Assembly: GCA_016928575.1 (NCBI GenBank)
Contig: JAFGKK010000009.1
Coordinates: forward strand, 1-32,656
DNA from: Anaerolineales bacterium
GTDB lineage: Bacteria > Chloroflexota > Anaerolineae > Anaerolineales > RBG-16-64-43
Length of the DNA: 32,656 nucleotides
Reading direction: 5' to 3'
A model generated the notes under the pieces. It saw only the letters and a list, made by a program, of their open reading frames with translations. It had not been told where the DNA came from and searched no databases. Position 1 is the stretch's first letter, and the number at the start of each line of letters is the position of its first letter. Of the stretch, positions 16,479-29,086 are shown one piece after another. Made by a program: the position numbers and the translations under genes.

Positions 16479-17177
16479 TTAAAAGGAATAAGGGATAGGA
16501 TCTTCGATCCCGGCGAACAGCGCCCGCACCTCGCCGGCATCGAGCCGCGGATTGTTCTTTTCGGCGGACGCCTTGAGCCAATCCTCCACGCCCTTCAGGA
16601 TGAACGAATCGGCGCCGGCCAGCGCCGTTTGCATCGGCGTATCCGGAGGAAATTTCCGCAGCAGTTCGGCGTTGGGGATGATCATCACGTCGCGCGCGCG
16701 CTCGGGGAGCGCGCGAATCCGTTCCAGGCCTTCCCGGGCGATATGAGCGCGGCGCAGCCCTTCGAAATCGGCCGGAGTGAAAACGAAGAACAGCGGGATG
16801 ATCGCCAGCTCGTGGACGATCTCGGCGACGACGGGGAGGGCGCCGGTGCCCGTGCCGCCGCCGAATCCGGCGACGACGAACAGCAGGTCGGTTCTCTTGA
16901 GCAGGTCGTCCAGGGCAGCGACGGATTCCTCGGCGGCCTTGCGCCCCAGGCGCGGATCCCCGCCGGCTCCCTGGCCGCGGACCGCCTTCTTCCCGATCTG
17001 CAGCGAGGCCGCCGCCGGAGAGAGCAACAGGGATTTCGAATCGGTGTCGACCGCCGCAAAGCGCACCTCGGGCGGCGCCTGCCGGCTGATCCGGCGGATC
17101 ACGTTTGACCCGCATCCGCCCACGCCGAGAAAGGTCGTCCGCGTTCCGTCGATCCCGATCCGGTTGTTCTCCGCCAT
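16479..17177 (-). CDS. Truncated FtsZ/tubulin-like GTPase (GTPase domain only)
   Basis: The 232-residue protein aligns by eye with the FtsZ GTPase domain: LGVGGCGSNVIRRI (T1), AAVDTDSKSLLLS (T2), VRGQGAGGDPRLGRKAAEES (T3), VVAGFGGGTGTGALPVVAEI (tubulin signature, GGGTGTG at 106-112), and IIPNAELLRKF. It ends with RLDAGEVRALFAG, matching the FtsZ T7 loop NLDFADV with N changed to R (211), D kept (213) and D changed to E (216). FtsZ is usually 350-450 residues; the C-terminal domain and the conserved tail are missing, and only 136 bp separate its stop from the convergent gene. SD GGAGGAG supports the start. It may bind GTP but is unlikely to replace cell-division FtsZ; a regulator or co-polymer is possible. 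Confidence 0.85.
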   Translation of the reverse strand: MAENNRIGIDGTRTTFLGVGGCGSNVIRRISRQAPPEVRFAAVDTDSKSLLLSPAAASLQIGKKAVRGQGAGGDPRLGRKAAEESVAALDDLLKRTDLLFVVAGFGGGTGTGALPVVAEIVHELAIIPLFFVFTPADFEGLRRAHIAREGLERIRALPERARDVMIIPNAELLRKFPPDTPMQTALAGADSFILKGVEDWLKASAEKNNPRLDAGEVRALFAGIEDPIPYSF

Positions 17178-17348
17178 CGTGCGTCTCCTCCGGTTCTCTC
17201 CTTGCGCCGCCGCCGCGCCGGCGCAGCGGTTTTCTCACACGTCAATCGCCGGGCGTGATTCTATTCTATACACTAAAGCCCGCCGGAAGGCGGCCGGAGA
17301 TGGATTCCCGCGGAATTTTGGAATTTGCCCCGCGGCGGAGCATCTTGT

Positions 17349-17354
17349 TATACT
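17349..17354 (+). promoter_or_regulatory. Extended -10 element for the glycosyltransferase gene
   Basis: TGTTATACT gives TG, one base and TATACT. It is 95 bases before the ATG at 17449, in the divergent gap with the FtsZ-like gene. No good -35 box. Confidence 0.4.
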
Positions 17355-17448
17355 CGCCTTCGGCGGCTGCGGAGTATCATTCCACCCGACGGGCAATCCG
17401 GACAGGCGCGGAAGCCATTTCATCCTGGAGACGGAACGAGGAGAGGAT

Positions 17449-19179
17449 ATGGGTAAACGAAGCATTGGCATTGTGCTCACGGCGCTCGGCGGTTTGGCGT
17501 TTGCAGCCGCCCTAGCCGCCGGTCTGGCCGGATACCCGCGGCCGGGCTGGGGGCACTACAAAATCCTGGCCGCCCTGGCCGGCCTCGGTGCCGCCGCCGC
17601 CGGGGTGTTCCTGCTGGAACGAAGCCTCCAAAAAGCGCGCGGCGCGCAAAACGCCGGCGGACGGTATTTCGCCTACGCCTGCTTCTTCAACGCGGCCCTC
17701 TCGCTCCTCCCGCGCCTGCCGTTCCTCGACCACATCAGCTCCTGGTGGCGTTCTTCCCACACCCTCCTCTCTTCCCTCTGGTTTCAAAAGGAAGGCATCG
17801 ACCTGTTCCACTATCAAACCCCGGTGTTCGGCCCGCCCTGGCAGGTGCCGCTGGAATTTCCGCTGTATCAGGCGCTCTGCACCGTGTTTGCCAACCTCAC
17901 CGGCATCGACCTGACTCTTTCGGCCCGGCTGGTGAGCCTGATGGTCTTCTACGCCACCGCCCTTTTTCTGGTCCTGCTGTGCCAGAAATTCCTCGAAAGC
18001 AAGTCCCTGATCCTGATCATCCTGACCGTTTACCTTTGGCTGCCGTTCAACATCCGCTACAGCACGGAGATCCTTCCGGATTATTTTTCGGTATTGCTGG
18101 CGATGAGCTACCTTTACTGGATCCACGAATGGCTGGCGGCGCCCCGCAGCCTTCCGCGCTTTTCGCTCGCGGCGATCTCGGGGATCCTCGGCGCGATGGT
18201 GAAAATCACCACCATGCCGATTGTCGCGATCCCGGCGGTGCTGATGGCGTTGGACGGCCTGCGGCAATGGGGGATGGCGCCGAAGGATTTTCTCTCGCCG
18301 CGCACATTGGCCGGGATGCTGAAGAGGCACGCGGGGCCGCTTGTGCTGTTGGCCGGCATCGCGCTGCTGCCCCTGGCCGCCGAGATCCTCTGGGTGCGGC
18401 TGGAAGACGCCGTCAAACAGGCCAACCCCTACACGGTCTGGTTGACCTCGGCGAATTCCAGCGATTGGTGGTACGGGACCTGGAGCCAGAAGCTGAGCTA
18501 CACGGAGTGGACGGGCAAGTTCACCAACCTGAGGAATTATTTCCTCTTCGGGCCGGTGATCCTGTTTCCGGTCCTGGGCGTCGCCTGCCTGCGCCGCCTG
18601 CCGCCCAAAAGCCGTTGCGTGTTCGGTTCGGCGCTGGCGGGCACCCTGCTGACGGTCTTCATCTTCTTTAATTTATATTTTCACGAGTACTACTACATCG
18701 CGGTAGCCGCGTTCCTCAGCATCCTGATCGGATTCGGGATCTACGCGTTGTACCGGTTCCTGCTGGAGCGGCATGTCTGGGGACACGTGTTTTCCGCCAT
18801 CCTCTTCGCCTTCATCCTGCTGGCGGGCCATGAAAAGTACGCGTTTATCCTCAACACGGTGAGTCAGGAAGTGGATTACACCGACGACACGTTTATCGCA
18901 GTTGCGGCGAAGGTGGCGGAGATCACGCCTGAGGACGAATACATCATCCTGCTCCAGGACGATTGGTATCCGGAAATGTTCCTGTTTTCCGGGCGCAAGG
19001 GCCTGACGATCATCCCCGAGGTGGAGGGCGTTTTCACCTGCGAATCGGTGACGCGCCATCCGTACACGACGGTGGTGACGGTGAACCGGCCGGCGAGCAC
19101 GGCCGAGGATCTCGGGATTCTGAGATGCTTCGGAACCGTCGAGAGGATCGCGCCGGGGCTGTACAAGGTGAAGCCGTAG
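17449..19179 (+). CDS. GT-C type membrane glycosyltransferase (family 39-like)
   Basis: The 576-residue protein has two N-terminal hydrophobic helices, then about ten more membrane segments up to residue 470, and a soluble C-terminal tail of about 110 residues. The loop after the first helices reads FQKEGIDLFHYQTPVFGPPW and continues to a Pro/Glu/Phe motif (LEFPLYQAL), as in PMT_2/ArnT-like glycosyltransferases that use polyprenyl-phosphate sugars, where an acidic residue in this loop is catalytic. The family acts on the outer face of the cytoplasmic membrane, transferring sugars to lipids or proteins. The ATG at 17449 has GAGGAGAGG close upstream; an open frame extends much further 5' but overlaps the FtsZ-like gene on the other strand. 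Donor and acceptor unknown. Confidence 0.82.
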   Translation: MGKRSIGIVLTALGGLAFAAALAAGLAGYPRPGWGHYKILAALAGLGAAAAGVFLLERSLQKARGAQNAGGRYFAYACFFNAALSLLPRLPFLDHISSWWRSSHTLLSSLWFQKEGIDLFHYQTPVFGPPWQVPLEFPLYQALCTVFANLTGIDLTLSARLVSLMVFYATALFLVLLCQKFLESKSLILIILTVYLWLPFNIRYSTEILPDYFSVLLAMSYLYWIHEWLAAPRSLPRFSLAAISGILGAMVKITTMPIVAIPAVLMALDGLRQWGMAPKDFLSPRTLAGMLKRHAGPLVLLAGIALLPLAAEILWVRLEDAVKQANPYTVWLTSANSSDWWYGTWSQKLSYTEWTGKFTNLRNYFLFGPVILFPVLGVACLRRLPPKSRCVFGSALAGTLLTVFIFFNLYFHEYYYIAVAAFLSILIGFGIYALYRFLLERHVWGHVFSAILFAFILLAGHEKYAFILNTVSQEVDYTDDTFIAVAAKVAEITPEDEYIILLQDDWYPEMFLFSGRKGLTIIPEVEGVFTCESVTRHPYTTVVTVNRPASTAEDLGILRCFGTVERIAPGLYKVKP

Positions 19180-19676: not shown

Positions 19677-19792
19677 CCCCGACTCGGGCTCTAGCGCCCC
19701 GAATACCGCCCCGCATGAGTTGGGAAAAATTAAATCGGGCGATTATCCTCGACGATGGTCCTTGGTCCGTCGTCCGCGGTCCATCGTCGGAT

Positions 19793-21715
19793 TCATCCCC
19801 GCCGGAACGCCGCCAGACTCTCCAAATACGCGTCCGGCAGGCCGATGTCGAAGCGCGTGCCGTCCATGATCAGGCCGTAAAACCCGTCCTCGCGGCGCAG
19901 CCGGTCCAGCGCCGAGGTGAGCTGGAACTCGCCCCGTTCGCGGACGTTGTTGCGGATGTGGTCCTCGAGGATCTCGAAGATTCCCGGCTTGACGATGTAG
20001 AGGCCGAAGACGGTGAGGTATTCGCCTTCGGGCATTCCCGGCGCGCGCAGGTTGGTGCGGGCGTAATCGACGGTCGGCTTTTCGGCGAACTCGCTGATGT
20101 TGAGCACCCGGTCGTCCTCGATCCACACGCCGCCGACGGTGCCGTAATTAGCGATCCGCTCCTCGGGCGTGCTGCGCAGGCCGAGGATGTTGGTCCCGTA
20201 GCGCTGGTAGGCCTCGATCAGCTGGGTGGCGCAGGTTTTTTCGCCGGCGGAGCGGTAGAGGTGGTCGCTGAGCATCAGCAGGAAGGGCTCGCCGCCGACG
20301 GCCTCGCGGGCGCAGTGGATCGCATGCCCGAAGCCCTCCTGGTTCTTCTGGACCACGAAGGTGACCCGCTTGCCGATGTCGAGGATCCGGCCGGAGTACT
20401 CCTGGAAGTGCCGCGGCAGTTTGTTGAAGTTCTCGACCGAGACCGGGTCGTTGAAAAAGGCTCGGAAATCGTCAAGGTCGTCGGGCTGGACGATGACGAT
20501 GATCTCCTCGATCCCGGCGTCGAGCGCCTCCTGGACGGCGTAGAGGATGGCGGGCTTGGCGATCCCGTCCCGGTCGACGACCGGAAAGAGCTCCTTCTTG
20601 GTGGCCTTCGAGGCGGGAAACAGGCGGGTGCCGAATCCGGCGGCGGGCAGAACCGCCCGGCGGATGGGCTGGGTGGGACGGATCGTCAGCGCCAGGGCCG
20701 AAAGCTTCAGGTCCCGCTCGAGAATCCGGATCACGGCCTGCTGGTCCGCCGGGCTGCGGGCGACGAACTGCGCGGTGCCGTCGCCTTGCGAACCGACGCC
20801 CTTGCCCCCCCAGACGTGCGGTTGGAGTCTGGGGTGGGAGAGGGTATTGTGCAGAACGGGGGCGGTGAGCTCCTCGGGGCAGGCGGGCGCGGCGTATTGG
20901 TCGAACAGCGCCTGGGCTTCGGTCATCAGCGTGCCCAGCCGCTCGGCGTCGCCCTCGTGGAGCGCCTTTGCCGCCTCGTGGACGATGCGCTTGTTGAGCG
21001 GTCCGAGCAGTTCGTGCACGCCGCGCTCGACCTCGTTCTCGGCGATCGGGTAGGAGCGGTTCAGGCGGTTGAGAATCTCCATGGTATCTTTTTTGGATTG
21101 CAGGTCGACGACGACGAAGTACAGCTCCTTCTCCACCGTCAGGGTCTCGGTGTCCATCCGGTCGCCGTCGAAGGTCATCAGCACGGGGTGGTTGCCGAAG
21201 GCGCAGCCCTGGTCCATCCGGCCGCAGCGGGAGGGGGTGGTGATCTCGCCCATGTAGGCGAGTTCCATTTCGCCGCGCACGGTGAGCTTGAGGTCGTAGA
21301 CCCGGTTGAAGGCCCGCGCCGCCAGGACGCTGACCGCCGCGCTGGAGGAGAGCCCCTTGCGGATGGGCAGGTCGGTCTGGTAGTTGTGGAGCGTCAGCCC
21401 GCGAACGTGGTGGTTGGTGAGAACCTGGTAGGCCACGCCGGCGATGTAGCTCCAGAATCCGCCCTTCTCGGCCTCTTCCAGCAGGGCCTTGGGGTGCATC
21501 GGAATCTCCTGCGGGCCGTGCAGTTTTCCATCGCGGGTGGTGGAGGAGAGGACAAGCGAGGTGGGGTGCGGCTCGACTTCGGCGTAGATCCCCTGATCGG
21601 TGCCGCAGATCAGCGTGTAGCCCTTTTCGATGTCGGCGTTGATCCGGCGGTAGCCGCCGGCCCAATCCGAATGTTCGCCGAACAGGCAGATGCGTCCCGG
21701 TACGAAGAGCTTCAT
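19793..21715 (-). CDS. Bifunctional GHMP sugar kinase / GalU-like UTP-sugar-1-phosphate uridylyltransferase
   Basis: This 640-residue fusion has two domains. Residues 1-345 form a galactokinase-like GHMP kinase: PGRICLFGEHSDWAGGY (sugar-binding and Arg8), PIRKGLSSSAAVSV (117-130, ATP loop), CGRMDQG (Asp168 aligns with the galactokinase catalytic Asp) and GGKGVGSQGDGTAQF (third motif, 303-317). Residues about 352-640 form a nucleotidyltransferase like GalU: LPAAGFGTRLFPASKATKKE, PVVDRDGIAKP, QEGFGHAIHCA (459-469) and LSDHLY (482-487, metal Asp). Together they would turn a free sugar plus ATP and UTP into a UDP-sugar. Known kinase-pyrophosphorylase fusions (Fkp/FKGP for fucose) have the opposite domain order and other subfamilies. 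It is preceded by AGGAAAGAGG as SD. The sugar (galactose, arabinose, glucuronate) cannot be read from sequence. Confidence 0.85.
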   Translation of the reverse strand: MKLFVPGRICLFGEHSDWAGGYRRINADIEKGYTLICGTDQGIYAEVEPHPTSLVLSSTTRDGKLHGPQEIPMHPKALLEEAEKGGFWSYIAGVAYQVLTNHHVRGLTLHNYQTDLPIRKGLSSSAAVSVLAARAFNRVYDLKLTVRGEMELAYMGEITTPSRCGRMDQGCAFGNHPVLMTFDGDRMDTETLTVEKELYFVVVDLQSKKDTMEILNRLNRSYPIAENEVERGVHELLGPLNKRIVHEAAKALHEGDAERLGTLMTEAQALFDQYAAPACPEELTAPVLHNTLSHPRLQPHVWGGKGVGSQGDGTAQFVARSPADQQAVIRILERDLKLSALALTIRPTQPIRRAVLPAAGFGTRLFPASKATKKELFPVVDRDGIAKPAILYAVQEALDAGIEEIIVIVQPDDLDDFRAFFNDPVSVENFNKLPRHFQEYSGRILDIGKRVTFVVQKNQEGFGHAIHCAREAVGGEPFLLMLSDHLYRSAGEKTCATQLIEAYQRYGTNILGLRSTPEERIANYGTVGGVWIEDDRVLNISEFAEKPTVDYARTNLRAPGMPEGEYLTVFGLYIVKPGIFEILEDHIRNNVRERGEFQLTSALDRLRREDGFYGLIMDGTRFDIGLPDAYLESLAAFRRG

Positions 21716-21780
21716 GGAACCTCTTTCCTGAGAGGATGGGATTGCGGATGGGGGCGGGCCGCTGCGGCCCCCGGCGGCGA

Positions 21781-21786
21781 ATTATA
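21781..21786 (-). promoter_or_regulatory. Consensus -10 box for the kinase-uridylyltransferase gene
   Basis: On the minus strand this reads TATAAT, 66 bases upstream of the start codon. The leader between them is very GC-rich and can fold. No clear -35 box. Confidence 0.4.
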
Positions 21787-21826
21787 AATCACACTCCCCG
21801 CCCGGGCCGCGGCTCCGCGCGGGTGA

Positions 21827-23878
<2,052 letters not shown>

Positions 23879-23907
<29 letters not shown>

Positions 23908-24202
23908 CGCCGGCTTCTGGGCGGGCCTGTGGCGCGAGGCTCTGCTGGCGACGACCCTCGGATGGGAGCTGGCGATCCCGATCTTCGGCGGCGTGCTGAT
24001 CGGATACGGACTCGACCGCTGGCTGGGGGAAGGGCACACGTTCACGATCGGCCTGCTGCTGGCGGGGGTGTTCGTCAGCTATTATAACCTTTGGCGGTTC
24101 ATCAAGCGCTTGGACCGCAAATCGAATCCGGAGGAAAACCAGCCGGAGGAAGAGGGGGAGGCGCAAGCTTGGAACGGGGAAGAGGGAAACAAGGAGGGAT
24201 GA
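23879..24202 (+). CDS. atpQ: N-ATPase accessory membrane protein AtpQ (AtpI-like)
   Basis: The 107-residue protein has two membrane helices (about 24-45 and 53-72) with GWELAIPIFGGVLIGYGLDRW between and around them, as in AtpI/AtpQ proteins, then a charged Glu-rich tail. AtpI-like proteins assist c-ring assembly or Mg2+ uptake in relatives. It overlaps atpC by 29 bases if it starts at 23879, or by 17 from the ATG at 23891, and overlaps atpR by four. Confidence 0.8.
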
Positions 24203-24468
24203 TGGTTTTGTACATCCTGTGGTTCGGGCTGGGGGCTGTCTGCGGCGGAGCGGGGGTCTGGAGCATGCGCCGGACCGTCATGGCGGCGGATCCCGCCGGC
24301 GGATCCGCCGCGGGGCGGATCGCCCTGGGAATTTATCTGCGGATGGGATTGGCGGCGGCGCTGCTGCTGGGCGCGGTGCAAACCGGTCCGGGTTGCGCCG
24401 TGGCGGCGGCCGCGGGGCATTGGCTCGCCGGTCGGCTGTCGCTCGCACTCGGCCTTCGGAGGCGGTGA
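24199..24468 (+). CDS. atpR: N-ATPase accessory membrane protein AtpR
   Basis: This 89-residue protein has three hydrophobic segments. An Arg lies inside the second (GIYLRMGLAAALLLG), a feature reported for AtpR, where it is thought to face the c-ring carboxylates during assembly. AtpR occurs only in N-type operons, so its presence between atpQ and atpB is diagnostic. Two ATGs are adjacent (24199 and 24202), after AAGGAGGG. The stop overlaps the atpB start (TGATG). Confidence 0.8.
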   Translation: MMVLYILWFGLGAVCGGAGVWSMRRTVMAADPAGGSAAGRIALGIYLRMGLAAALLLGAVQTGPGCAVAAAAGHWLAGRLSLALGLRRR

Positions 24469-25127
24469 TGGAAGACGTGCTTCCCAAAGTCGTCTTCACG
24501 GTTTTCGGCCTGCCCGTCCGGGATACGGTGGTGGCGACGTGGGCGATGATCCTGCTGGTGCTGCTGGCCGCGGCGTTCATCAACCGCCGCAAGCCGACCG
24601 CGCTGGAGATGCTGGTGGATTTTCTCGCCGACCTGATCAGCGGGATCCTCGGGCGCCCGGCCGCGCCCTATCTGCCCCTGCTCGGCTCACTGGCGATCTT
24701 CATCGCGGTGGCCAACGTGATCGGCTTCATCCCGTTCCTGCTCTCCCCCACCCGCGACATCAACACGCCGTTGGCGCTGGCGCTGGTGGTGTTCCTCTCC
24801 GTGCACTTTTTCGGCATCCGTTCGAAGGGGCTGGTGCGGTACCTGAAGGACATGGCCTCGCCGATCTACCTGCTGCCGCTGGAGATCATCGGCCAGTTGA
24901 GCCGCACGCTCTCGCTCACCCTGCGGCTGTTCGGCAACATCTTCAGCGCGGAATTGATCCTGGTGATCGTCATCGCGCTGGCGCCGCTGTTTGTCCCGCT
25001 GCCGCTGGCCGGATTGGGGATCTTCACCGGCCTGCTGCAGGCCTATATTTTCACCGCGCTGGCGGCGGTCTACATCGGCGCCGGGGTGGAAGCCGTCGCC
25101 GAAGGAAAACGAAAGGAAAAAGGATAA
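24468..25127 (+). CDS. atpB: Alternate F1Fo ATPase subunit a
   Basis: The 219-residue Fo subunit forms the ion half-channels. Five or six membrane helices are visible. The essential stator Arg is R153 in the SLTLRLFGNIFSAEL motif, matching E. coli Arg210. It is shorter than the housekeeping a subunit (about 270), as usual for N-type enzymes. The ATG overlaps the stop of atpR. It is followed four bases later by the c-subunit gene. Confidence 0.93.
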   Translation: MEDVLPKVVFTVFGLPVRDTVVATWAMILLVLLAAAFINRRKPTALEMLVDFLADLISGILGRPAAPYLPLLGSLAIFIAVANVIGFIPFLLSPTRDINTPLALALVVFLSVHFFGIRSKGLVRYLKDMASPIYLLPLEIIGQLSRTLSLTLRLFGNIFSAELILVIVIALAPLFVPLPLAGLGIFTGLLQAYIFTALAAVYIGAGVEAVAEGKRKEKG

Positions 25128-25131
25128 CCTC

Positions 25132-25404
25132 ATGGCAGAAATGGATCCGAACACCCTGGTACTCGTCGTCACCATCATCATCGCCGGAGCGGGGATCGTC
25201 CTCGGAACGGCCATTCCGGCCCTGGCGGAGGGGCGCGCCGTGGAGAAGGCCCTCGACAACATGGCCCGCCAGCCGTCCATCTCGCGAGACATCCGCACCA
25301 CCCTGCTGATCTCCATGGCGCTTTTGGAATCCACGGCGATCTACGTCCTGCTGGTCATGCTGATCCTGATCTTCGCCAATCCGCTGGTCGATCGGCTGTT
25401 GTAA
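25132..25404 (+). CDS. atpE: Alternate F1Fo ATPase subunit c
   Basis: The 90-residue rotor subunit has two helices (about 8-33 and 55-82) joined by the loop ARQPSI, which contains the family RQP. The ion-binding carboxylate is E66 in LLESTAIYVLLV; E, S, T and Y match the Na+ ligand pattern of the Ilyobacter c subunit (E65, S66, T67, Y70). E33 in the first helix replaces the Gln32 ligand, giving two carboxylates per site, a pattern described for N-ATPases. Both Na+ and H+ transport have been discussed for such rings. An in-frame extension upstream has no basis; the ATG at 25132 has GGAAAAAGGA before it. Confidence 0.93.
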   Translation: MAEMDPNTLVLVVTIIIAGAGIVLGTAIPALAEGRAVEKALDNMARQPSISRDIRTTLLISMALLESTAIYVLLVMLILIFANPLVDRLL

Positions 25405-25416
25405 AGGAGACGCGGC

Positions 25417-26199
25417 ATGCTGGATCTGGACCTGACCACCATCGTGCTGGAGATCCTGAACTTCCTGGCGCTCACCGTCGGGTTGTATTACCTGCTCTTC
25501 CGGCCGGTGATGCGGCGGGTGGAGGCCCGGGCGCAGGAGAAGGCCCGCGTGGAACGCGAGATGAAGCGCGCCCTGCAGGAGGCGGAAGAGCACAAGGCGG
25601 AGCTGGAACGCCGGCTGGGGCGGGTGGACGAAGAGGTGGACCGGCTGATGGACGAAGCCCGCGAGCGGATCGAACGCGAGCGCAGCCAGATGCTGGAGGA
25701 GATCCGGGCCGAGGCCGAGCAGGCCCGCGACGACGCGGAAGCCGATATCCTGCGGCATCACAAGCAGGAACTCAAGGAGTTCAACCAGTACGTGCTCGAC
25801 ACCCTGATCGCGCTCAGCGGCGAATTGATCGAAAAAGCCGCGCCGGCCGAAGTCCACGACCGGCTGGTGCAGGAAACCAACGACTACGTCTGGAAGCTCG
25901 GCAAGGAGCAGGCCCACGAAGTGGAGGCCCTGCGCCGTTCGCTGGGCGACCGCACGCCCACCGTGCACATCTCTTCGGCCCGGGCGCTCTCCCCCGACCA
26001 GCAGCGGATGCTGGCCAAGACCTTCAGCGCCTTGACGGACCGCAACGTCAACTTCGAAATCGAAACCGATTCCAAGCTCTACGGCGGGGTCCGGGTGCGG
26101 GTGGGCGACATGCTGTTCGACAATTCCATCGCCGCCCAACTGGAACGGATCCGCTCCGAAACCCAAAGCGGCCTGCAAGCGATGACGCCCGATGACTGA
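25417..26199 (+). CDS. atpF: Alternate F1Fo ATPase subunit b with delta-like C-terminal domain
   Basis: The 260-residue stator protein begins with one membrane helix (about 9-30), followed by a long, strongly charged coiled coil to about residue 125. The last 90 residues (about 170-250) resemble the C-terminal part of delta/OSCP: VHISSARALSPDQQ, then KLYGGVRVRVGDMLFDNS and QLERI. Since no atpH gene exists in the operon, this part should attach the stator to the top of alpha. SD AAAGGAG lies 7 bases or so upstream. It overlaps atpA by eight bases. Confidence 0.88.
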   Translation: MLDLDLTTIVLEILNFLALTVGLYYLLFRPVMRRVEARAQEKARVEREMKRALQEAEEHKAELERRLGRVDEEVDRLMDEARERIERERSQMLEEIRAEAEQARDDAEADILRHHKQELKEFNQYVLDTLIALSGELIEKAAPAEVHDRLVQETNDYVWKLGKEQAHEVEALRRSLGDRTPTVHISSARALSPDQQRMLAKTFSALTDRNVNFEIETDSKLYGGVRVRVGDMLFDNSIAAQLERIRSETQSGLQAMTPDD

Positions 26200-27877
26200 G
26201 ACTCCCCGCCCGGTCGATCCGCGCATTCGGGCCGCCGCGGAGCGGATCCGTAAGGAAATCCCCTGGCTGGATTCCGCCGCTCAACCGGAGCAGGTCCGTC
26301 TGGATGCCCGGCGGATCTGGCAGAACACCCGCCCCGCCGACGCGCCGCGGACGGTCCGCCGCCGGAGGCTGGCGATGCTCCTGCGCCTGATCCGCCAGGC
26401 GGTGCGGCGCCACCAGTACCGGGTGGAGCACCGCGACGTCGGCACGGTGCAGCACATCGGCAGCGGGGTGGCGACGATCTCCGGGCTGCGCCAGGCGGGC
26501 GTGGACGAGTTGGTGGAATTCCCCACCGGGGTGCGGGGGATGGTGTTGACCCTCGACCACGACCGTGTGCACGCCATCCTGCTGGGAAGCGACGAAGGCG
26601 TGCACGGCGGCGACCTGGTGACGGCCAGCGGGGGGCGGCTGAGGATCCCGGTGGGCGCGGACCTGGCCGGGCGGGTGATCACCCCGCTGGGGGAGCCGAT
26701 CGACGGACGCGGTCTGATCGAAGCCTCGGACGAGTATCTGCTCGAACGCGACGCGCCCGGAATCGTCGACCGCCGGCCGGTCCACCGGCCGTTGCACACC
26801 GGCCTCAAGGTGATCGACGCCTTGCTGCCAATCGGCTGCGGCCAGCGCGAATTGATCGTCGGCAACCGGCAGACCGGGAAGACCGCCCTGGCGATTGACG
26901 CCATTCTCAACCAGCGCGAGACGAAGGTCTACTGCATCTACGTCGCGATCGGGCAGAAGAGCTCTTCGACCCTCTCCGTCATCCGCACCCTGCGGACCGA
27001 AGGGGCGCTCGAGTACACCACGGTGGTGGTTTCCAGCCCCGACGATCCGCCGGCCCTGCGCTACCTGGCGCCCTACGCGGGCTGCTCGATCGCCGAATAC
27101 ATGACCCACCAATTGAAGCGGGATACGCTGGTGGTGTATGACGACCTCAACCGGCATGCCGACGCTTACCGTGAGCTGAGCCTGCTGCTGCGCCGTCCTC
27201 CGGGCCGGGAGGCGTATCCCGGCGACATCTTCTACCTGCACGCGCGGCTGCTGGAGCGCGCCGGCCAGCTTTCCGCGGATTCCGGCGGCGGCTCGCTCTC
27301 GGCCCTGCCGATCGTGGAATTACAGCGCGGGAACATCTCCTCCTACATCCCCACCAACCTGATCTCGATCACCGACGGGCAGATCGTGCTCGACGGCGAC
27401 CTGTTTAACAAGAACGTCAAGCCGGCGGTCGACATCGGGCTTTCGGTTTCGCGGGTGGGCGGAGCCGCGCAAACCCCGGCCATGCGCAAGGTGGCGGGCC
27501 GCATCCGGCTGGAGCTGGCGCAATACGACGAGGTGGCGCGCTTCGCCCGCTTCGGCACCGATCTGGACGAGCACACCCGCCGGCAGATCCGCCGCGGGCA
27601 GCGCCTGCAGAACCTGCTGACCCAGCCGGTGAACCGCCCGATGAGCCTCGGCCGCCAGGTGGCGGTGCTTTACGCCGCCGGCAGGGAGCCCTTCGAAGAC
27701 GTCCCCCCCGAGGAGGCCCGCGCCTACGAACAGCGCCTGGTGGAATTTCTGGAGGACAGGCACCTCGAAATTCTCAACGCCGTCCAGCGCGAAGGCCGGC
27801 TTGAGGGGGAGACGGCGGCGGAGCTGGAGGAAGCCCTGGAAGAGTTCGACCGGTCCGCCGAAGCGATGCGGGAGTGA
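26192..27877 (+). CDS. atpA: Alternate F1Fo ATPase subunit alpha
   Basis: This 561-residue F1 subunit carries the non-catalytic nucleotide site: Walker A GNRQTGKT (224-231), the family segment YVAIGQKSSSTLSVIRTL, VVYDDLNRHADAYRE, and SYIPTNLISITDGQI. The Walker A lies about 55 residues later than in the housekeeping subunit owing to an Arg-rich N-terminal extension (1-75), which could contact the unusual b/delta stator. The gene starts within the end of atpF. It is followed by a small PII-like gene instead of atpG, which is the notable oddity of this operon. Confidence 0.95.
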   Translation: MTETPRPVDPRIRAAAERIRKEIPWLDSAAQPEQVRLDARRIWQNTRPADAPRTVRRRRLAMLLRLIRQAVRRHQYRVEHRDVGTVQHIGSGVATISGLRQAGVDELVEFPTGVRGMVLTLDHDRVHAILLGSDEGVHGGDLVTASGGRLRIPVGADLAGRVITPLGEPIDGRGLIEASDEYLLERDAPGIVDRRPVHRPLHTGLKVIDALLPIGCGQRELIVGNRQTGKTALAIDAILNQRETKVYCIYVAIGQKSSSTLSVIRTLRTEGALEYTTVVVSSPDDPPALRYLAPYAGCSIAEYMTHQLKRDTLVVYDDLNRHADAYRELSLLLRRPPGREAYPGDIFYLHARLLERAGQLSADSGGGSLSALPIVELQRGNISSYIPTNLISITDGQIVLDGDLFNKNVKPAVDIGLSVSRVGGAAQTPAMRKVAGRIRLELAQYDEVARFARFGTDLDEHTRRQIRRGQRLQNLLTQPVNRPMSLGRQVAVLYAAGREPFEDVPPEEARAYEQRLVEFLEDRHLEILNAVQREGRLEGETAAELEEALEEFDRSAEAMRE

Positions 27878-27880
27878 ACG

Positions 27881-28201
27881 ATGAAAATGATCATGGCAAT
27901 CGTCCCGAAGATGGAAGCCGAGTCGGTGCTGGATCACCTGGTGGATGCCGGGTTCACCGCCACCTACATGGAAAGCCGCGGCCGGATTATGCGGCAATCG
28001 CAGTTGACCCTCTATATCGCGGTCAGCGACGCGAACGTGGAAACGGTGATGAATATCATCCGCGAAAACTGCCACTCGAAGATCCGGATCAACCCGGTCC
28101 GCCGGGGAGACGGCAAGGCGGGCGGGGAAGCCGCGGTGCAGGCGGACGTCGGCGGAGCGGTGATCTTCCTGTGGAGCCTGGACGCCGTCCGGACCGGCTG
28201 A
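27881..28201 (+). CDS. PII-like protein of the DarA/c-di-AMP receptor family, inside the atp operon
   Basis: The 106-residue product starts three bases after the atpA stop. It follows the pattern of DarA/PstA/YaaQ: MKMIMAIVPKMEAESVLDHL (strand 1, helix 1), LTLYIAVSDANVETVMNIIR (strand, helix 2) with EN next, and the C-terminal QADVGGAVIFLWSLD (GGA-hydrophobic motif). DarA-type proteins are PII-like trimers that bind c-di-AMP between subunits. The ligand loop here reads ESRGRIMRQSQLT, where DarA has TTGGFLKSGNTT, so the Gly pair and Asn of the known site are not kept; the ligand may be different. Its location points to control of the ATPase, perhaps by contacting alpha or gamma. Role is inferred. 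Confidence 0.78.
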   Translation: MKMIMAIVPKMEAESVLDHLVDAGFTATYMESRGRIMRQSQLTLYIAVSDANVETVMNIIRENCHSKIRINPVRRGDGKAGGEAAVQADVGGAVIFLWSLDAVRTG

Positions 28202-28216
28202 ACGGCGGAGCGCGGC

Positions 28217-29086
28217 ATGGAATCCAAAAGCGGCGACCGGCTCGAAAACATCCGCAGCGTCGAACCGATTCTCGACGCCCTGCGGACCATCGCGCTCGGC
28301 AACTGGCACGCCGCCCTGAGGCGGCGGGAATGGGTTTTGGAATTCGCCCGGCGCACCGGCGGGATCCTGGCGGAGATTCCGTCCGGGGCCAAGCCGCCGG
28401 CGGCGGAGGCGGACGCCGGCGGACGCCAGACGGCCGCGCTGGTGATCGGGAGCGAACGCGGATTGTGCGGTTCGTTTAACCGGGTTCTGGCGGAGCGGAC
28501 CGCGGAATACCTGGAAGACCGCGCCCGGCGCGGGGAATCCGTGCGTTTGTACGCGGCCGGATCGCTCGCGGCGCGGACCCTGGAACGGATGGGCATGGAG
28601 ACCGAGCGCTTCAAGGTTTCCGCAACCGCCGCCCTGCCCACGTTCGAGACGGCCGACGCGTTGGCGCGGGATTGGCTTTCCGCTTACGAAGCGCAAGAAG
28701 TGGACCGGGTGGACGCGATCTACAACGCTTATCTTGGAGCGGGGCGGAACGAGACGAGGATCGTGCGGTTGATTCCGCCGCAGATTCCCCGCCGCCCGGC
28801 CGCGGAAGCGGATGAGGCGGGGTTCGCCCCGATCCTGGAAACCGAACCGCTCGGGCTGATCGTCCGGGTGGTTCTGTTGCAGCTGTCGGCGCAGGTCTAC
28901 GCCTGCCTGCTTGAATCCTCCGCGGCCGAGAATTCCGCGCGCTTCCAACTGCTGGAGGAAGCTCGGCAGAACATCGACCGCCTGGTGGAGGAACTCGAAG
29001 CGGAGGCCGCCCAGGCTCACCGCCAATCCATCACCCGGGAGTTACAGATCCTGGCCGCCGGGTCGGGATTGTTGCGCGGGGAGTGA
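28217..29086 (+). CDS. atpG: Alternate F1Fo ATPase subunit gamma
   Basis: The 289-residue central-stalk protein has the gamma layout: an N-terminal helix (RLENIRSVEPILDALRTIAL), a Rossmann-like middle (ALVIGSERGLCGSFNRVL), and the long C-terminal helix with AENSARFQLLEEARQNID and ITRELQILAAGSGLL that rotates inside alpha/beta. It is divergent from housekeeping gamma, as usual for N-type operons. GGCGGAG precedes the ATG at a spacing of 8 bases. It is the last gene of the operon. Confidence 0.9.
   Translation: MESKSGDRLENIRSVEPILDALRTIALGNWHAALRRREWVLEFARRTGGILAEIPSGAKPPAAEADAGGRQTAALVIGSERGLCGSFNRVLAERTAEYLEDRARRGESVRLYAAGSLAARTLERMGMETERFKVSATAALPTFETADALARDWLSAYEAQEVDRVDAIYNAYLGAGRNETRIVRLIPPQIPRRPAAEADEAGFAPILETEPLGLIVRVVLLQLSAQVYACLLESSAAENSARFQLLEEARQNIDRLVEELEAEAAQAHRQSITRELQILAAGSGLLRGE

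Follow-up and report, generated by a model that had tools for sequence, protein, structure and literature searches.

In the L-fucokinase/GDP-fucose pyrophosphorylase (FKP) of Bacteroides, an enzyme of monosaccharide salvage, a GHMP sugar 1-kinase is joined to a sugar-1-phosphate nucleotidyltransferase; the pyrophosphorylase comes first and the kinase last in a protein of 949 aa, and GTP rather than UTP is used (PMC11982464). In the zebrafish protein DrGKUP (glucuronokinase/putative UDP-glucuronate pyrophosphorylase), a short nucleotidyltransferase of bacterial type, directed towards a UDP-sugar, comes first, and a GHMP kinase, the glucuronokinase, comes last (PMC3938481). The zebrafish kinase is active, whereas pyrophosphorylase activity of the recombinant protein was not confirmed in vitro, and the authors call this half putative (PMC3938481). 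The protein described here, encoded in a stretch of 32,656 nucleotides from an Anaerolineales bacterium (the window), is kinase-first. A sequence-only reading of the window had claimed that its domain order is opposite to that of the fucose kinase/pyrophosphorylase fusions and that the subfamilies differ, and both points hold: the kinase stands last in FKP (PMC11982464), and the Fucose_pyrophosphorylase domain (PF07959) is absent from our fusion in a Pfam scan, which sets it apart from the FKP type. The reversed order likewise separates it from the zebrafish architecture. Kinase-first order is shared with HldE, the heptose-7-phosphate kinase/heptose-1-phosphate adenylyltransferase, in which a PfkB-type kinase is combined with a cytidylyltransferase-type domain; the folds, however, are unrelated, and the Pfam scan of the fusion gave no PfkB match but a GHMP one, which places it outside HldE. 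We infer that the fusion works like FKP, DrGKUP and HldE, yet by the tests made it is a member of none of them. A search of the open-access literature returned no description of a kinase-first GHMP/GalU-like family, and this conserved family is apparently undescribed so far.

The fusion gene occupies positions 19793-21715 of the minus strand as a single complete frame of 640 aa with an ATG start, and the putative ribosome-binding site AGGAAAGAGG lies upstream of the ATG (21720..21729, minus strand). A homologue scan of the sequence collection found 20 related loci, mostly full length and 54-86% identical to the window protein. Besides the window protein itself, 16 full-length or near-full-length homologues were retrieved, all free of internal stops. 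An alignment of 17 proteins fits 640 columns, and the fusion is therefore essentially collinear. In either half, most substitutions relative to the nearest relatives fall on third codon positions; the GalU half evolves under strong constraint, and the short stretch around the join under weaker constraint than the halves. The frameshift artefact that the sequence-only reading had named as its own refutation is ruled out, as is an assembly artefact, by these collinear homologues, spread over six phyla without internal stops, and by the third-position substitutions; the fusion of kinase and uridylyltransferase is genuine. A 690-aa plus-strand frame over the same DNA (19715-21787) has only antisense similarity behind it and is regarded as a shadow frame.

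As had been read from the letters, kinase and GalU-like halves lie on one polypeptide, and the Pfam scan recovers both: GHMP_kinases_N (PF00288) at residues 90-173 (7e-10; 39.4 bits against a cut-off of 22.3) and NTP_transferase (PF00483) at residues 354-634 (5e-20). Together with structure matches, these delimit an N-terminal kinase domain of galactokinase fold (residues 1-340; 20696..21715), a short linker between the domain limits (residues 341-349; 20669..20695) and a C-terminal uridylyltransferase domain of GalU fold (residues 350-640; 19796..20668), all on the minus strand. The structure comparison used an AlphaFold2 model with a mean pLDDT of 78. Residues 1-345 match the fold of the Pyrococcus galactokinases 2dei and 1s4e (VIA Z 29.6 for 2dei of P. 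horikoshii), which with the PF00288 score places this half in the GHMP kinase superfamily, and residues 350-640 match UDP-glucose pyrophosphorylase 8f73 of P. aeruginosa (VIA Z 32.6). Confidence in the model is low at residues 16-28 and 362-372, both of which contain active-site motifs, and for this reason the pocket was not read from it. The best NCBIfam matches of the fusion were galU, mevalonate kinase and galactokinase, all far under their cut-offs: the galactokinase models gave 66.5 against 443 (NF003006) and 45.5 against 226.65 (TIGR00131), the GalU equivalog TIGR01099 gave 179.7 against 326.8 bits, and PF10509 gave 21.9 against 23.1. Since neither half reaches the curated cut-off for galactokinase or GalU, the fusion lies outside GalK and GalU proper, although the C-terminal half belongs with GalU by fold and active-site residues.

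All five motifs quoted in the sequence-only reading (GEHSDW, GLSSSAA, MDQ, GFGTRLFPASK and QEGFGHA) are present in the translation. In the kinase half, the sugar-pocket motif GEHSDW (residues 13-18; 21662..21679, minus strand) contains E14, H15, D17 and W18, invariant in 60 of 60 sequences with letters there. The phosphate-binding motif GLSSSAA (residues 121-127; 21335..21355) and MDQ (residues 167-169; 21209..21217), whose D168 lies where galactokinases have their catalytic base, follow on the same strand. In a set of 61 sequences, R8, E14, H15, D17, S123-125, D168 and K209 never vary in those that cover the position. The GEHxD, GLSSSA and MDQ motifs are common to the Pyrococcus galactokinases, from which the window kinase nevertheless departs, with about 20% identity and an extra segment, WAGGYRRINADIEK, after the GEHSD motif (residues 18-31; 21623..21664, minus strand). 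This segment is about 11 aa longer than in galactokinases, with R23 invariant and R24 kept in 57 of 60 sequences. The galactokinase tyrosine, which sits near O4, we align with N216 of the window protein; in this sequence alignment the position is variable, with N, A or S in most members. Because the catalytic residues are kept while a segment is added and the tyrosine position varies, the kinase half appears to combine a galactokinase-type catalytic apparatus with a different pocket.

The uridylyltransferase half carries the nucleotide signature GFGTRLFPASK (residues 360-370; 20606..20638), QEGFGHA (residues 459-465; 20321..20341), SDH (residues 483-485; 20261..20269), in which D484 is predicted to bind Mg and H485 is typical of the subfamily, EKP (residues 545-547; 20075..20083), with predicted sugar and phosphate contacts, and D623 (19847..19849), by alignment the predicted second Mg-binding Asp, all on the minus strand. 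Aligned to solved GalU, the active-site residues are largely preserved across the homologues. Compared with bacterial GalU, the window half has only about 30% identity, carries a DGxAKP insert and falls in a separate clade. On a quick tree, in which some branches are long, the uridylyltransferase halves of the fusions form one clade (SH-aLRT 97); its provisional sister is a stand-alone subfamily that also carries the insert.

Conservation in this half is uneven. D484, E545, K546 and D623 are kept in all fusions that cover them, whereas E375, Q459 and Q598 vary and R364, the Arg of the GxGTR signature, is replaced in 9 of 55 fusions (L134-L139, L087, L088 and L089), which still have the metal-binding Asp residues and EKP. 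The loss of the signature Arg in these nine means that the uridylyltransferase half may be weakened in some lineages. One could go further and suppose that the kinase is the functional part and that, in some lineages at least, the other half has undergone partial decay or has become a regulatory domain to which UTP or a UDP-sugar binds without turnover. The contrast with the essentially invariant kinase residues and the stand-alone kinases of Nostoc plasmids, Verrucomicrobiota and Gemmatimonadota speak for such decay. We regard it as improbable, given the four residues retained in every fusion covering them, the strong constraint on the GalU half and the complete, intact GxGTR signature of the window protein.

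The fusion is present in Chloroflexota, Acidobacteriota, Planctomycetota, Gemmatimonadota, Verrucomicrobiota and Sumerlaeota, where its full-length homologues are 58-86% identical to the window protein. It was found in about 10% of the sampled genomes of Verrucomicrobiota and in 1-2% of those of the other large phyla. A full-length copy was found in 5 of 61 genomes of the genus, family and order of the host (host counted) and in 3 of 301 sampled Chloroflexota genomes. The kinase half was detected in 29 of 288 sampled genomes from the phylum of the Verrucomicrobia member, 7/297 from that of the Acidobacteriota member, 6/298 from that of the Longimicrobiales member, 3/294 from that of the Phycisphaerae member and 2/40 from that of the Sumerlaeota member. 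Six relatives consist of the kinase only (L023 from Longimicrobiales, L154 from the Verrucomicrobia sample and L169-L172 on four Nostoc plasmids); the Nostoc plasmid kinases are annotated merely as GHMP kinase. In the kinase tree these six are scattered over three places among the fusions, a placement compatible with either order of fission and fusion. On a plasmid of Sphaerospermopsis kisseleviana (L168, 8022-9731), a truncated kinase of the fusion family, missing its N-terminal part, precedes an unfused, intact-looking uridylyltransferase gene whose product falls in the same subfamily as the C-terminal half of the fusions. Genes that are separate and adjacent in one organism and fused in others are a usual sign of a functional link, and the S. 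kisseleviana pair, set beside the fusions elsewhere, points to such a link between the two halves. Further candidate fusions did not survive inspection: the leading parts of two apparent kinase-first frames (L048 and L072; 669 and 741 aa) are not kinase sequence but mere open frame before GalU, and G356 C453 is actually two genes, a GHMP kinase and a GalU.

Both folds with their catalytic residues, the conserved fusion, the nucleotide-sugar neighbours found elsewhere and the S. kisseleviana gene pair are the grounds on which we read the protein as, probably, a bifunctional monosaccharide 1-kinase and UTP:sugar-1-phosphate uridylyltransferase. The N-terminal half would transfer phosphate from ATP to the C1 position of the free sugar, D168 serving as base and GLSSSAA holding the phosphates, and the C-terminal half would convert the sugar-1-phosphate and UTP to UDP-sugar and pyrophosphate; the fusion would keep the sugar-1-phosphate intermediate local and make a one-protein salvage of monosaccharide to UDP-sugar. 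We infer activity, the direction of the reaction and UTP as the nucleotide. Against it count the replaced signature Arg in nine of 55 fusions, the zebrafish analogue, whose pyrophosphorylase half was inactive in vitro (PMC3938481), the six kinase-only relatives, and the neighbourhood in Chloroflexota, which is conserved only among close relatives. The direct route from free sugar to UDP-sugar that the sequence-only reading proposed is likely. Bypass of GalT as its purpose finds no footing, since the host genome has a classical galactokinase as well as GalT and a bypass is not needed.

The two activities might instead be independent, the kinase making one sugar-1-phosphate and the GalU half mainly producing UDP-glucose from glucose-1-phosphate as the GalU of the cell. 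In the host and in the tested fusion-bearing Anaerolineae, no protein reaches the GalU cut-off and the fusion is the best GalU-type match, as this explanation would have it. Anaerolineae without the fusion, however, also lack any GalU-type match, so this is no plain substitution of the fusion for GalU, and four genomes from three other phyla (G353, G355, G356 and G357) carry the fusion and a true GalU besides. We therefore consider independent activities unlikely and retain the coupled reading.

Within the window the fusion gene stands alone, with no functionally linked neighbours: on one side lies a divergent F-type ATP synthase operon, on the other a convergent gene for a putative glycosyltransferase. 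The supply of sugar donors to a nearby GT-C glycosyltransferase, as earlier suggested, gains nothing from this arrangement: that gene is convergent, on the other strand and more than 600 bp away, and neither Pfam nor NCBIfam matches its 721-aa product (17014-19179, plus strand) at E<=0.001. The ATP synthase operon (21971-29086, plus strand) comprises, in this order, beta, epsilon, small membrane proteins, a, c, b, alpha and the gamma region. Its subunit c has the motif LESTAIY and, within helix 1, another acidic residue, features that suggest an alternate, possibly sodium-coupled (N-type) ATPase, although the beta subunit scores under the alternate-ATPase cut-off.

Across Chloroflexota there is no conserved neighbourhood beyond short synteny among close relatives, and no sugar genes there. 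In other phyla, the genes around the fusion were called by a simple codon-usage method with approximate starts. Of the 56 genes immediately beside the fusion in Verrucomicrobiota, 11 are nucleotide-sugar genes, whereas the 287 at greater distance include 8. The enrichment is no more than suggestive, as the query genes were picked from the same neighbours and as L128/L130/L143, L144/L145 and L149/L150 form sets of related loci, several of them syntenic. Among these neighbours are UDP-glucuronate decarboxylases (E 1e-122 and ~5e-108 against solved UXS1 structures), a nucleotide-sugar dehydrogenase, a GalU and GHMP kinase pair, and a protein that we tentatively take, from sequence features, to be UDP-glucuronate 4-epimerase-like; its top match in the PDB bears the label dTDP-glucose 4,6-dehydratase, and the second, 6zl6, is described simply as an epimerase-domain protein. 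FKP proper (818 bits against a cut-off of 721) is a separate, full-length gene directly upstream of the fusion in L144 (5976-8882, overlapping it, and with PF07959) and in L145, so that two bifunctional sugar-salvage enzymes stand in tandem. In all five Gemmatimonadota loci (L160-L164), the gene directly upstream of the fusion is heparinase II/III-like, its product being related to oligoalginate lyase and dermatan-sulfate epimerase. Overall, the neighbours suggest a setting in which monosaccharides are salvaged and UDP-uronates metabolized.

Four Verrucomicrobiota loci (L085, L128, L141 and L143) encode a GmhB/HisB-like HAD phosphatase in the gene that immediately precedes the fusion, as might be expected if the enzyme were a heptose or sugar-phosphate kinase/nucleotidyltransferase resembling HldE or HddA/HddC and working with a GmhB-like phosphatase; the conserved arginines of the extra segment could then bind phosphate. 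However, the four loci are partly syntenic, with gyrase genes alongside, most loci have no HAD gene beside the fusion, the L017 phosphatase scores under the GmhB cut-off, and the kinase is galactokinase-like in fold. Such a role is highly improbable, and a free monosaccharide remains the favoured substrate.

As to which monosaccharide, the gene surroundings in other phyla lean weakly towards a uronic acid, with galactose about equally well indicated. The salvage and UDP-uronate theme makes uronate a serious candidate; against it stands the invariant E14, whose counterpart in galactokinases touches the C6 hydroxyl. A GHMP kinase of another branch, with the motif GNPSDG, adjoins GalU as a separate gene in genomes that also carry the fusion (L070, 1339-3336; L085, 161-2079; L149, 10837-12765); genomes with this arrangement include G356, G357 and G1206. 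This kinase may resemble glucuronokinase, and the two genes may be a bacterial glucuronokinase/GalU pair. Since some fusion-bearing genomes possess such an additional GHMP kinase/GalU pair, and E14 is invariant, glucuronate should not be assumed. Galactose is disfavoured by the unconserved tyrosine near O4 and by the GalK that the host already has. A uronic acid (glucuronate or galacturonate) is tentatively proposed, galactose or another neutral hexose is a somewhat weaker possibility, and a sugar of another kind is rather unlikely.

Should the enzyme be active, it would offer a compact one-protein route from free sugar to UDP-sugar donor, useful in enzymatic glycan synthesis, and would indicate that kinase/pyrophosphorylase fusions arose more than once and with opposite domain orders. 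It is doubtful, though conceivable, that a widespread, as yet undescribed bacterial family salvages free glucuronate or galacturonate straight to the UDP form, having been assembled from a kinase of galactokinase type and a GalU-like subfamily of its own, with a domain order opposite to that of the FKP and zebrafish fusions and an origin independent of theirs. Proteins whose annotation stops at ‘GHMP kinase’ or ‘UTP-glucose-1-phosphate uridylyltransferase’ gain a testable function from the analysis, which also suggests that several phyla that have received little study possess a salvage branch.
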